The notes beneath the pieces were generated by a model. It did not search any database. It was not told the DNA's origin and saw only the letters and a program-made list of their open reading frames with translations. The position numbers and the translations under genes are program-made. Shown here in pieces: positions 26,630-31,624 of a stretch of 64,000 nt of DNA. Source of the stretch: Nocardia nova SH22a (GTDB lineage Bacteria; Actinomycetota; Actinomycetes; Mycobacteriales; Mycobacteriaceae); the NCBI RefSeq assembly GCF_000523235.1, contig NZ_CP006850.1, positions 1,736,001-1,800,000 on the forward strand. Reading direction: 5' to 3'. How positions within the stretch are numbered: position 1 is the stretch's first letter; each line of letters starts with the position of its first letter.

Positions 26630-28799
26630 GGATCGACCTATGACGACGACTGTGCTGGACGCGCCCCCCGCCGAGGCCATCGAGCCCGCCCCGGCGCGCG
26701 TCCCGAATCCGCGATGGCGGCGGCTGTCCCTGGTGGCCCTGCTGGTGGGTACGGCACTGCTGTACATCTGGGATCTGGGCGCCAGCGGGTGGGCCAACGA
26801 GTTCTACGCCGCGGCCGTGCAGGCCGGATCGCAGAGCTGGAAGGCGATGCTGTTCGGATCCAGCGACGCCGCCAACGCGATCACCGTGGACAAGACGCCC
26901 GGCGCGCTGTGGATCATGGACCTCTCGGCGCGGATCTTCGGCTTCAACTCGTGGAGTCTGCTCGTACCGCAGGCCGTCGAGGGCGTTCTCGCGGTCGGTG
27001 TGCTGTATGCCGCCGTGCGGCGGGTCTCCGGGCATTGGCCGGGCATCCTGGCGGGCGCGATCCTGGCCCTGACACCGGCCGCGGCGTTGATGTTCCGCTT
27101 CGACAACCCCGACGCGGTGCTCGTGCTCCTGCTCACCGTGGCCACCTACTGTGTGGTGCGCGCGATCGAGAAGAACAGTGCCGCATGGTGGTTGCCGCTG
27201 GCCGGGGCCGCGATCGGCTTCGGGTTCCTGGCGAAGATGATGCAGGCGTTCGTGGTGCTGCCGGTCTTCGCGGTGGTGTATCTGCTTGCCGCGCAAGCAC
27301 CTTGGCGCACCCGGTTGATCCGCTCGGTCCTGGCCGTGCTGTCGGTGATCGTGTCGGCGGGCTGGTACCTGGCCGTGGTGGCGCTGTGGCCCGCCTCCTC
27401 CCGGCCGTACATCGGCGGCTCCCAGCACAACAGCGTGCTCGAACTGGCCTTGGGCTACAACGGTTTCGGTCGCCTGACCGGTGACGAGGTCGGCGGCCTG
27501 GGCAATATGAACTACGACGTGGGCTGGGCCCGGCTGTTCGGTTCGGAGATGGGCGGCCAGATCGCCTGGCTGATCCCCGCGGCGCTGATCCTCGGCCTGG
27601 CCGGGCTGTGGCTCACTCGCCGCGCGCCGCGCACCGATCCCGTGCGCGCGTCGCTGCTGCTGTGGCTGGGCTGGCTCGTCCTAACCGGCGCGATCTTCAG
27701 CTTCGCGGGCGGCATCCTGCACCCGTATTACACCGTGGCGCTGGCACCGGCCATCGCCGGGAGCGTGGCGATCGGCGCGGCGCTGTTGTGGCAGCGGCGC
27801 AATGACATTCGCGCCACGGCGGTACTGTCCGGAGCCCTGGTGGTGACCACCGTGACCTCCTGCCTGCTCCTCGCGCGCACCAGCGATTGGATGCCGTGGC
27901 TGCGTCCGGTCGTGGCCGTGGTGGGCGTCGGCGCTGCCGCTCTGCTGCTGGTCGTGTCCCGGTTGCCGCGGGCGATGGCCGCCGGTGTGGTGGCGCTGGC
28001 CCTCGCGGCGGGCCTGGCCGGGCCCACCGGATACGCACTGGCGACCGCGTCGACCCCGCACACCGGGGCGATACCTTCCGCCGGACCGTCGAGCGGGCAC
28101 TTCCCCGGCGGGATGCCGGGTGGTGGGCCCGGAAACTCGCAATCCTCAACTGGCAGTGCGCAATCGGGCACCGCGCCGGGGCAGTCCGACACCGCCGGTG
28201 CGCCCGGCCAGCCGGGAACTGCGGGAAGCCAGTCCGGCACTCGGGGGAGCCGAAACGGCACTCCGCCCGGTCAATCGGGGACTGCTGGTAGTCAGTCGGG
28301 GACGGCGGGTAGCCAATCCGGCACTGCGGGTGCCCAATCCGGAACCGCGGCCAGCCAGTCGGGGAGTGCGACCAGTCAGTCCGGCACTTCTGGTAGCCGA
28401 TCCGGGCGCACCGCCGGCGGCCCGATGGGCGGACTACTCGGCGGTATCTCCGTCGGCTCGAATATGGTTGCGGCCCTTGATGACAATGCCTCCGACTACA
28501 CCTGGGTAGCGGCAGCGGTCGGTTCCAACAGCGCCGCCGCGTACCAGCTCGCCACAGACCATCCGGTGATGGCGGTCGGCGGATTCAACGGCACCGACCC
28601 CGCCCCGACCCTGGCCCAGTTCAAGGAGTACGTGGCCCAGCACAAGATCCACTACTTCATCGGCGGCTCCGGCATGGGCGGTATGCGCGGCACCGACAGC
28701 GGCGGCAGCCAGGAAGCAGCCGACATCGCGAAATGGGTCGAAGCCAATTTCACCGCCCGAACGATCGACGGAGTGACGGTCTACGACCTCACCTCGTGA
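26607..28799 (+). CDS. GT39-family membrane glycosyltransferase (ArnT/PMT-like), copy 1
   Basis: A 730-residue polytopic protein with about eleven to thirteen membrane helices. The first external loop carries the acidic GWANEFYAAAVQAG (residues 61-74) expected of GT39/ArnT enzymes, which use a lipid-linked sugar on the outer face of the membrane. Residues about 505-605 are a repetitive SGTAGSQSGT linker, followed by a soluble C-terminal domain (YTWVAAAVGSNSAAAYQLA to VTVYDLTS). The GTG at 26607 overlaps the kinase; an ATG at 26640 is an alternative. It has a paralog at 33518. The acceptor, cell-wall glycan or protein, is unknown. Confidence 0.9.
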   Translation: MTTTSADEDRPMTTTVLDAPPAEAIEPAPARVPNPRWRRLSLVALLVGTALLYIWDLGASGWANEFYAAAVQAGSQSWKAMLFGSSDAANAITVDKTPGALWIMDLSARIFGFNSWSLLVPQAVEGVLAVGVLYAAVRRVSGHWPGILAGAILALTPAAALMFRFDNPDAVLVLLLTVATYCVVRAIEKNSAAWWLPLAGAAIGFGFLAKMMQAFVVLPVFAVVYLLAAQAPWRTRLIRSVLAVLSVIVSAGWYLAVVALWPASSRPYIGGSQHNSVLELALGYNGFGRLTGDEVGGLGNMNYDVGWARLFGSEMGGQIAWLIPAALILGLAGLWLTRRAPRTDPVRASLLLWLGWLVLTGAIFSFAGGILHPYYTVALAPAIAGSVAIGAALLWQRRNDIRATAVLSGALVVTTVTSCLLLARTSDWMPWLRPVVAVVGVGAAALLLVVSRLPRAMAAGVVALALAAGLAGPTGYALATASTPHTGAIPSAGPSSGHFPGGMPGGGPGNSQSSTGSAQSGTAPGQSDTAGAPGQPGTAGSQSGTRGSRNGTPPGQSGTAGSQSGTAGSQSGTAGAQSGTAASQSGSATSQSGTSGSRSGRTAGGPMGGLLGGISVGSNMVAALDDNASDYTWVAAAVGSNSAAAYQLATDHPVMAVGGFNGTDPAPTLAQFKEYVAQHKIHYFIGGSGMGGMRGTDSGGSQEAADIAKWVEANFTARTIDGVTVYDLTS
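28130..28410 (+). repeat. Ser-Gly-Thr repeat-coding segment in GT39 copy 1
   Basis: Imperfect 21-bp units encode repeats of the type AGSQSGT (consensus GGGACTGCGGGTAGYCAATC-like). They form a flexible linker before the soluble C-terminal domain and are likely length-variable. Confidence 0.65.
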
Positions 28800-28945: not shown

Positions 28946-29131
28946 TCAAGCGAAGAATTGGTCGAGGGTTGTCGCCGTCAGGATTCGCTCGGTCCGCGCT
29001 TCCAATTCGGCTGGATTAGCGGCTTGCACGCGACGGACGATGTCGTCTGGGAGGGAGCCGAATTTGAGTGAAAGTAGCCGGAGCAGGGTTCTGACTTGGC
29101 CTTCTGCGCGGAGTTGTTCGGCTGTGGTCAT
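28946..29131 (-). CDS. Stand-alone Rpn C-terminal cassette, copy 3 (candidate RpnS-like antitoxin)
   Basis: A 61-residue ORF, MTTAEQLRAEGQVRTLLRLL to ILTATTLDQFFA, homologous to the last 65 residues of the Rpn-like nuclease at 29440. It has lost the EARGQTK segment and has the weakest ribosome-binding site (GAGAG six bases from ATG). It ends with the same stop context as the parent. In E. coli RpnA an internally started C-terminal protein inhibits the full-length toxin; the same role for this detached copy is inferred. It could instead be a decaying duplicate. Confidence 0.6.
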   Translation of the reverse strand: MTTAEQLRAEGQVRTLLRLLSLKFGSLPDDIVRRVQAANPAELEARTERILTATTLDQFFA

Positions 29132-29180
29132 GGCGTTCTCTCTCGCGGGCAGGCTGCGGTGGTCGGCCGCGCGCTTCAGG

Positions 29181-29390
29181 TCAGGCGAAGAATTGGTCGA
29201 GGGTCGTCGCCGTCAGGATTCGCTCGGCCCATGTTTCCAATTCGGCTGGGTTACCGGCTCGCACTCGGTCGATGACGTGGTCGGGGAGGGGGCCGAATTT
29301 GACGGTCAGCTGGCGCAGCAGGAGCTTGGCCTGCCACTTGGTCTGGCCCCTGGCTTCGCCTTCTGCGCGCAGTTGTTCGGCTGTGGTCAT
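29181..29390 (-). CDS. Stand-alone Rpn C-terminal cassette, copy 2 (candidate RpnS-like antitoxin)
   Basis: A 69-residue ORF starting MTTAEQLRAEGEARGQTKWQ and ending ILTATTLDQFFA, closely related to the C-terminus of the full Rpn-like protein. AAAGGAGG six bases before the ATG is a near-perfect ribosome-binding site, so it should be translated well. It carries a four-residue insertion (WQAK region) relative to the parent. The frame is open a further 13 codons upstream, where the sequence is the duplicated VDQLGPL region. A role as inhibitor or oligomerisation partner of the nuclease is inferred. Confidence 0.7.
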   Translation of the reverse strand: MTTAEQLRAEGEARGQTKWQAKLLLRQLTVKFGPLPDHVIDRVRAGNPAELETWAERILTATTLDQFFA

Positions 29391-29439
29391 GGCGGCCTCC
29401 TTTGTCAGCGGGCCGAGTTGATCGACCACGCGCCCCAGG

Positions 29440-29637
29440 TCAAGCGAAGAATTGGTCGAGTGTAGTCGCCGTCAGGATTCGTTCGGCCCACGTTTCCAAC
29501 TCGGCAGGGGTACCGGCTCGCACGCGCCGGATGACGTCGTCGGGCAGGAGACCGAACTTGAAGTCCATCTGCCGGAGCAGGGTTTTGGTCTGGCCTCTGG
29601 CTTCGCCTTCTGCGCGGAGTTGTTCGGCTGTGGTCAT
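29440..29637 (-). CDS. Intragenic small Rpn protein (RpnS-like), inside the nuclease gene
   Basis: An in-frame ATG at 29637 within the rpn-like gene is preceded by AAGGAGG at a six-base distance, an ideal internal Shine-Dalgarno. It would yield a 65-residue C-terminal protein, MTTAEQLRAEGEARGQTKTL to DQFFA. E. coli rpnA is reported to make such an internal product that neutralises the nuclease. The same signal recurs at duplicated copy 2, which supports its functional use. Expression is unproven. Confidence 0.65.
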   Translation of the reverse strand: MTTAEQLRAEGEARGQTKTLLRQMDFKFGLLPDDVIRRVRAGTPAELETWAERILTATTLDQFFA

Positions 29638-30405
29638 GGCGGCCTCCTTCGCCAGCGGGCCGAGTTGATCGACCACGCGCCCCAGGTCCCGGGAGCTGGT
29701 CTCGGACACCTTACTAATGTACGTGAACAGGCTGAACAGGTCATCGGCCGCGTTGGGGGATTCTTCTACAGCCCGCAGTGTTCCGATATGCGGCTGTAGG
29801 TCTCGATCGAGATGTTCGTTCTTGAATGCCAGGCGGTGCAGGATCAACATCATCAGGACCGCCGGTGTCAGGTTGCGGGCGTAGAGGTCACGGAGGTCGA
29901 GTTCGGCAAGGTCGTCGACGATGATCCGGAACCGTGGTACCAGGTCTCCGAGGTGTTCGCGGATGGCGGGGTCGGTGCCGATGCGGTCCCACAGTTCGGT
30001 GCTGTAGGTCCAGCGCCAGGTATTGGGGCCGGAGTTGACCACGACGGGGATGACCAGCGGATAGTGGTCGGACCGGGGGTGTTCGTTCAGGTGCTGGGTC
30101 CACGTGCCGATCATGTACTCCAGCACCCGAAGCGGCATGTGCTTGTCGGGGGTGCTCTGATGTTCGAGGAGCAGGTGGATGTACCCTTCGCGGCCCGCCA
30201 CCGTTGTCTTGAACAGCACGTCGCTGTCGCGGTTGCGCAGGTTCGGTAGCACGTACCTGCTGGGGGCCAGCTCCATCGCATCCCAGTCGATCAGTGCCAC
30301 AAGCCAATCCGGCAGTACGGCCCGAAGTTCGCCCGCAGCCGCGGCGGCATTCGACATGATCTTGCGAAACAAGGAGTCGTGTGGATTGTCCTGCCGCGCA
30401 GTCAC
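29440..30405 (-). CDS. Rpn family recombination-promoting nuclease / putative transposase
   Basis: A 321-residue protein of the RpnA/PD-(D/E)XK transposase-like family. It starts near DNPHDSLFRK, the family's conserved opening. Nuclease-core residues are visible: SDVLF (Asp), then LLLEHQS (Glu-x-Gln) followed by MPLRVLEYM. The C-terminal 65 residues form a separate helical tail. The GTG at 30405 was chosen because the family starts here; a longer frame to 30474 adds an unlikely leader. Family members cleave DNA, promote recombination and act in phage defence. It lies between two GT39 genes, an accessory position. Confidence 0.88.
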   Translation of the reverse strand: MTARQDNPHDSLFRKIMSNAAAAAGELRAVLPDWLVALIDWDAMELAPSRYVLPNLRNRDSDVLFKTTVAGREGYIHLLLEHQSTPDKHMPLRVLEYMIGTWTQHLNEHPRSDHYPLVIPVVVNSGPNTWRWTYSTELWDRIGTDPAIREHLGDLVPRFRIIVDDLAELDLRDLYARNLTPAVLMMLILHRLAFKNEHLDRDLQPHIGTLRAVEESPNAADDLFSLFTYISKVSETSSRDLGRVVDQLGPLAKEAAMTTAEQLRAEGEARGQTKTLLRQMDFKFGLLPDDVIRRVRAGTPAELETWAERILTATTLDQFFA

Positions 30406-31480: not shown

Positions 31481-31570
31481 ATCGAAGTCCCGGGCAAGAT
31501 CGCCCGGGTTGGCGAGCCGGGGCCGCCGACGCTGATCGAGTATCGGCTGACGTCGCCGGGGCACCGCGAT

Positions 31571-31624
31571 TCATTCGTGAGCGAGATGCCGCGCGAATCA
31601 TTCGTGAGCGAGATGCCGCGCGAA
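31571..31624. repeat. 27-bp perfect tandem duplication of the TetR gene's 3' end
   Basis: Two identical 27-bp units (31571-31597, 31598-31624) lie head to tail. The second unit contains the last eight codons and the stop of the minus-strand TetR gene (FARHLAHE-stop); the first is the copy just beyond the stop. Confidence 0.9.

Follow-up and report, generated by a model that had tools for sequence, protein, structure and literature searches.

The rpn gene studied here lies in a 64,000-nucleotide stretch of the Nocardia nova SH22a genome (the window) and encodes a putative nuclease, RpnL, whose C-terminal tail is predicted to be produced a second time, from an internal start, as a small antitoxin, RpnS. 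The region encoding this tail (W0 in the gene) occurs twice more directly downstream, as the stand-alone tails W1 and W2 (Table 1). We favor, with middling confidence, the explanation that the extra copies represent antitoxins of separate specificity and a stock for recombination, mixed with decaying remnants. Full-length RpnL would then be a DNA nuclease of the PD-(D/E)XK type, the tail made from the internal start would bind and silence it, and W1, and perhaps W2, would be made as free antitoxin-like proteins after the two tandem duplications of the 3' end of rpn, ribosome site included.

Table 1. Features of the rpn locus, further tail sites in the same genome, and annotated E. coli loci
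Feature	Position or locus	Strand	Remarks
rpn gene, full-length nuclease RpnL	29440..30405	-	PF04754 domain and C-terminal tail, 321 aa
AAGGAGG ribosome-binding site of the internal start	29643..29649	-	sequence, conserved among homologous genes
Internal RpnS (predicted), in-gene tail W0	29440..29637	-	65 aa, helix step 28
Upstream part of the W1 unit	29338..29441	-	96% identical to 29585-29688 (104 nt; find_repeats-type search, family D3)
Stand-alone tail W1	29181..29390	-	69 aa, helix step 32, AAGGAGG at 29396-29402
Stand-alone tail W2	28946..29131	-	61 aa, helix step 24, ribosome site decayed
Two tails in tandem	C1:2227691-2228148 (L007)		window's genome
Two tails	C1:969257-969690 (L153)		window's genome
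One tail and 44-residue nuclease remnant	C1:378087-378281 (L152)		window's genome
rpnE tail marked as pseudogene	L183, L185-L188, L195-L199, L204, L205, L207-L212		E. coli loci

The gene-within-gene toxin-antitoxin system RpnL/RpnS has been described for RpnA, RpnB, RpnC, and RpnP2 of E. coli (Zhong et al. 2023; PMC10327210), the only report among the papers listed by an open-licence library that concerns RpnL/RpnS by title and abstract. Separate rpnS genes downstream of rpn were already reported for E. coli in the same work (PMC10327210), and the arrangement in the window is therefore not new in kind. What is new here is the codon-level conservation of the internal start, the quantization of the first tail helix in steps of four residues, the length mismatch of the copies, and the movement of tails. 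The Nocardia locus shares with the E. coli system an Rpn nuclease, an internal start that opens the tail, a DUF4351-type tail, and four-residue repeats in helix 1. It differs in having two stand-alone copies, one of them one step longer and the other one step shorter, and in being actinobacterial, inhibition and defense being putative functions here. The E. coli rpnE-ypaA (rpnE'S) locus likewise possesses a stand-alone tail just downstream, on the same strand and with a repeated ribosome site, but has one extra copy instead of the two in the window; its product YpaA is produced in E. coli (PMC10327210).

The open frame of rpn extends from 30474 to 29440 on the reverse strand, with a GTG at 30405 as the likely start codon. 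RpnL matches PF04754 with an E value of 3e-40 (138 bits, cut-off 21), bearing out the initial annotation as an Rpn nuclease gene, and is the only PF04754 gene of this genome. The NCBIfam RpnA profile also matches, though below the cut-off of that model. In an alignment of 67 sequences, residues D61, E80, and H81 (counted from the residue after the start) were invariant and Q82 was conserved in at least 90%; we take D61, E80, and Q82 to be the PD-(D/E)XK-type catalytic residues. An AlphaFold model of the full-length protein reached a mean pLDDT of 92, and a Foldseek search with it returned nothing at an E value of 0.001 or better. PADLOC gave no match for Rpn and the three adjoining ORFs, and PADLOC-DB 2023 may not include Rpn. 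A promoter scan of the locus found none, and a pattern scan revealed no terminator-like site on the rpn strand, both such sites being located on the opposite strand.

The first reading of this DNA had pointed to an ATG inside the gene that follows AAGGAGG and would yield a C-terminal protein of 65 residues. Coordinates and peptide proved to be correct, with the ATG at 29637 and a spacer of 5 nt. The codon-level comparison with homologous genes lends further support to this internal antitoxin start. Our comparison set comprised 94 different intact Rpn genes that have a tail (distinct nuclease DNA, 170 or more of the 252 profile positions covered, tail in frame, and stop codon inside the locus), obtained by searching 150 genomes taken to be Nocardia and by a named-genome scan, and including one Gordonia gene (L013). 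From 125 PF04754 matches, 110 lay in surveyed loci (30 loci, 78 regions, the window, and one match inside L044); the 15 left out were short fragments with E values of 3e-21 or weaker. A start codon (ATG, GTG, or TTG) is present at the homologous internal position in all 94 genes, that of L096 having been placed by hand since the profile had misaligned this gene. A run of at least five bases of the ribosome site was counted by script in 90 of the 94, and L096 also carries AAGGAGG. Whenever the internal start codon encodes valine, it is GTG (48/48, compared to 43% for valine elsewhere in the same genes). Lysine at position -4 is always encoded by AAG (80/80 vs. 66% elsewhere), and glutamate at -3 by GAG in 90 of 91 cases (58% elsewhere). 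When each 70%-identity cluster was represented by a single gene (51 clusters), the corresponding chance values were 2e-8, 1e-7, and 5e-11. This bias is telling because amino acid constraint alone cannot choose among synonymous codons. As judged from codon usage, selection acts on the internal start at the nucleotide level, and the pattern argues for use of this start throughout the genus. We infer that RpnS is translated separately in Nocardia.

To describe tail length, we defined the helix step as the distance between the internal start and the conserved Phe that follows helix 1. In 93 of the 94 in-gene tails this value is divisible by four, with a range of 24 to 56; relative to W0, W1 is one step longer and W2 one step shorter. 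In the full AlphaFold model, a single long helix (residues 249-283) runs through the start region and is followed by shorter helices, so that each four-residue step would be predicted to lengthen this helix. The tail modelled alone is helical with a long first helix (residues 3-28; mean pLDDT 93). The layout described for RpnA-S appears to be the same (PMC10327210). Searching PDB sequences with the tail profile recovered no credible relative, RpnA-S (7TH0) included; the best match was a TAL effector repeat (E 0.013), and the best Foldseek match of the tail model had an E value of 2.7. Both stand-alone tails scored above the DUF4351 cut-off of 25 bits (27.4 and 27.5 bits), while W0 taken alone scored 22.1 bits, below this value.

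That the tail is repeated twice downstream as separate ORFs with the same start peptide had been noticed initially and was confirmed: W0, W1, and W2 all begin with MTTAEQLRAEG. W1 starts 49 nt downstream of rpn, and its first 18 residues are identical to those of W0. A DNA repeat search identified the 104-nt stretches of Table 1 and 258-nt copies of 79% and 64% identity, which excludes a chance likeness of the tails at the sequence level. A tandem duplication is thereby confirmed in the DNA, by which the ribosome site and the codons preceding it were copied along. The strong ribosome site ascribed to one detached copy belongs to W1, where the spacer after AAGGAGG is the same as at the internal start; W2 is preceded by GAGAGA only. 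Two further repeats were observed in the window. A 27-nt direct repeat (31565-31618) is present in two copies with 96% identity, and downstream of the rpn array (28209-28397) degenerate 21-nt repeats encode SQSGTAG-like linkers in an ORF that is presumably glycosyltransferase-like.

Rpn loci were surveyed for tandem tails, as suggested at the outset. Tail-like matches downstream of rpn were found at at least 24 of the 94 loci, a lower bound because 4 of the 70 loci without a downstream tail have less than 750 bases of sequence on that side. Stand-alone tails that are full-length and open with a start codon are present, singly or in greater number, at 20 of the 94 loci (23 tails in all), and 16 of these 23 tails carry a ribosome site of at least five matching bases. 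Counted by 70%-identity clusters, extra tails occur in 17 of 51. Locus L043 contains an in-gene tail and one intact stand-alone tail, followed by several broken pieces. At L030 and L105, two tails are fused in one frame downstream of the Rpn gene (134 and 150 aa, respectively). The genome of the window contains nine tail matches, three at the rpn locus and one weak and partial; the five further full tails are located at three sites far from any PF04754 gene (Table 1), and a ribosome site was seen on four of them. The tail-profile matches surveyed were the listed ones plus further ones in eight genomes. Tail-sized relatives amount to at least 1,026 proteins at an E value of 0.001 or better among 7,988 scored candidates, unsorted as to stand-alone status. 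A second Nocardia family of about 300 aa, with no Pfam match above cut-off, has a similar C-terminal tail lacking the internal start motif (L160:799-1677, L172:501-1421 and 1456-1686); detached tandem tails occur here as well, for example in G127. For the E. coli system, a fusion of an N-terminal domain with the rpnS region has been mentioned (PMC10327210).

The initial annotation had offered two interpretations of the duplication, namely that it raises the dose of antitoxin or that the copies bind different toxins. If extra copies merely supplied more of the same antitoxin, selection should favor equal lengths. We compared helix steps in 25 Nocardia pairs of in-gene and stand-alone tails, after excluding 6 of 31 downstream matches that were truncated or had no start or anchor residue. 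The lengths were equal in 3 pairs; of the unequal pairs, 19 were offset by a multiple of four and 3 by other amounts. At E. coli rpnE loci with two tails, none of 23 had equal lengths, and eight distinct combinations were found. In E. coli K-12, where RpnE itself carries an annotation as inactive, the stand-alone YpaA is exactly one KLEG step longer than the in-gene rpnE tail; the main text and legends of PMC10327210 contain no comparison of repeat numbers between rpnE and ypaA. In the case of RpnC, RpnC-L is blocked only by RpnC-S with a matching number of repeats, one extra repeat abolishing the block (PMC10327210). Since W1 and W2 both differ from W0 in step, an increased dose is unlikely. 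W1 nevertheless fits that interpretation in several respects: it shares its ribosome site and its first residues with W0 at a dN/dS of 0.19, and it follows rpn closely, with no terminator-like site on that strand in the pattern scan. By analogy to the RpnC rule, recognition would depend on the step number of helix 1, so W1 and W2 are predicted not to silence the neighboring RpnL, and binding of different toxins fits better than a raised dose. More likely, W1 and W2 would neutralize RpnL forms bearing those tails, i.e., earlier or related alleles or incoming copies. Against this explanation, P0121, with a nuclease 95% identical to that of the window, seems to have a stand-alone tail (P0009, tentatively assigned) of the same step as its own in-gene tail.

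The mismatch itself was also considered as a sign of selection for unequal lengths, and this was rejected, since two controls gave the same level. In-gene tails with a core identity above 0.8 share their length in 3 of 18 pairs, and random pairing of the eight E. coli combinations expects 0.5 equal. Fast repeat turnover alone can therefore account for the mismatch. Mixed tail dimers could also weaken the in-gene antitoxin and thereby tune or trigger the nuclease. RpnA-S does dimerize via its repeat-bearing helix (PMC10327210), but mixed dimers, too, should be weakened by a step mismatch, and we regard such interference as very improbable.

The main rival to antitoxins of separate specificity is that the copies are neutral leftovers. 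In a gene that recombines fast, the 3' end would occasionally be duplicated, the copies would drift to extinction, and their ribosome sites and similarity would be inherited, not maintained. We consider this possible, though on balance doubtful. We analyzed dN/dS between tails, with P(neutral) as a rough value from a simple binomial on Nei-Gojobori counts. W1 and W2 gave a dN/dS of 0.37 (rough P(neutral) 0.015), and W1 and W0 gave 0.19 (4e-4). Two other stand-alone pairs, O153 and L133, gave 0.26 and 0.21 (P 0.0011 and 0.0052), and the pairs of L007 and L030 were not significant (0.48 and 0.56; P 0.056 and 0.12). The values for W1/W2, O153, and L133 speak against neutral leftovers, as do the strong ribosome site kept in 16 of the 23 full-length copies and the production of YpaA in E. 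coli (PMC10327210). On the other hand, the pooled dN/dS between in-gene and stand-alone tails (0.53-0.57) is near the 0.65 that we estimate for one neutral branch, W2 has no ribosome site, and broken pieces accumulate at L043. For comparison, the pooled values are 0.30-0.32 for in-gene orthologues and 0.15 for the nuclease; since in-gene versus stand-alone tails exceed the former, many copies are relaxed. An open frame was rejected as proof of function: in a substitution-only simulation, the frame stayed open in 54% of cases after 22 changes and in 37% after 40, so that open frames prove little against neutral leftovers. From their substitutions, W1 and W2 look as if they evolve as proteins, and part of this signal may predate the exit of a copy from the gene. 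Stand-alone tails in general read as a mixture, with some kept and some decaying.

If the extra tails have specificities of their own, W1 and W2 could in addition act as a homologous reserve. Deletion or gene conversion would put such a copy in place of the in-gene tail, and toxin and antitoxin would be altered together at each exchange. Orphan immunity genes of contact-dependent inhibition systems and other polymorphic toxin loci present a comparable situation, with displaced 3' modules downstream that can be swapped by recombination; at those loci, toxin tip and immunity are swapped. The Rpn loci differ in that the inhibitor is the C-terminus of the toxin itself. Among Nocardia genes, nuclease domains of 95-97% identity occur with tail cores of only 62-77% identity, often of different length (the window and P0121, L008/L009 vs. 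P0128, L070 vs. L078 or L082, L012/L011). In other pairs, both nuclease and tail are kept (L008/L009 97 and 95%, L116/L118 97 and 93%, L027/L032 96 and 93%). Tails of 65 residues were judged too short for a tree, and we counted sites instead. The in-gene tail of L074 sides with the stand-alone tail of L030 at 20 sites to 4 (p 0.0015), the nucleases being 91% identical, and those of L120, L008, and L009 side with W1 over W0 at 13:2, 14:5, and 15:5 (p 0.007, 0.06, and 0.04). The remaining 20 comparisons comprise 14 that lean towards the in-gene tail (L060/L069 and L053/L078 at p ~0.01), 4 towards the stand-alone tail, and 2 that are even, which indicates that the in-gene tail stayed in place at most Nocardia loci. 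Because the p-values are uncorrected for 24 comparisons, tail exchange in Nocardia, including the window locus, is suggested rather than shown by these sites.

In E. coli, the signs of exchange are plain. Our sample of rpnE comprised 30 loci (K-12, 17 of 40 listed matches, and 12 of 14 listed matches), of which 23 have two tails and 6 a single one, the remaining locus being interrupted by an IS2 element. At the two-tail loci, a C-terminus of type B is always found downstream (23/23) and type A in the gene (22/23 by script label, L212 being unlabelled). In all six single-tail strains, the in-gene tail is of type B, agreeing with that type at 27 or 28 of the 28 diagnostic sites. BLAST against 5,426 E. 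coli genomes found 3,101 with type A and 5,363 with type B plus its flank; by subtraction, about 2,262 genomes have type B without type A, although strongly diverged copies could have escaped detection. One-tail and two-tail forms of rpnE are thus each present in thousands of sequenced strains. Judging from these comparisons, tails can change places between the gene and the stand-alone site, plainly in E. coli rpnE and with weaker signs in Nocardia. RefSeq annotates the detached rpnE tail as a pseudogene at 18 two-tail loci out of 23 (Table 1), with start codon and ribosome site seemingly intact, and as a CDS at the other 5.

A more far-reaching possibility, which we put forward tentatively and consider less than probable, is that Rpn loci form a recombining antitoxin-specificity system, in which interchangeable tail cassettes are arranged on a four-residue ladder and stand-alone tails guard against toxins with other keys. 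Deletion or conversion would promote a stored tail into the toxin, re-keying toxin and antitoxin in one step, and the helix steps of 24, 28, and 32 in the window would represent three keys of one locus. Should each copy be a key of its own, an Rpn locus would let toxin and antitoxin change jointly in a compact way, and immunity between strains would arise as a by-product. Such keys would also bear on the fast variation of repeat number, the cause of which was left open, with a phage factor suspected (PMC10327210).
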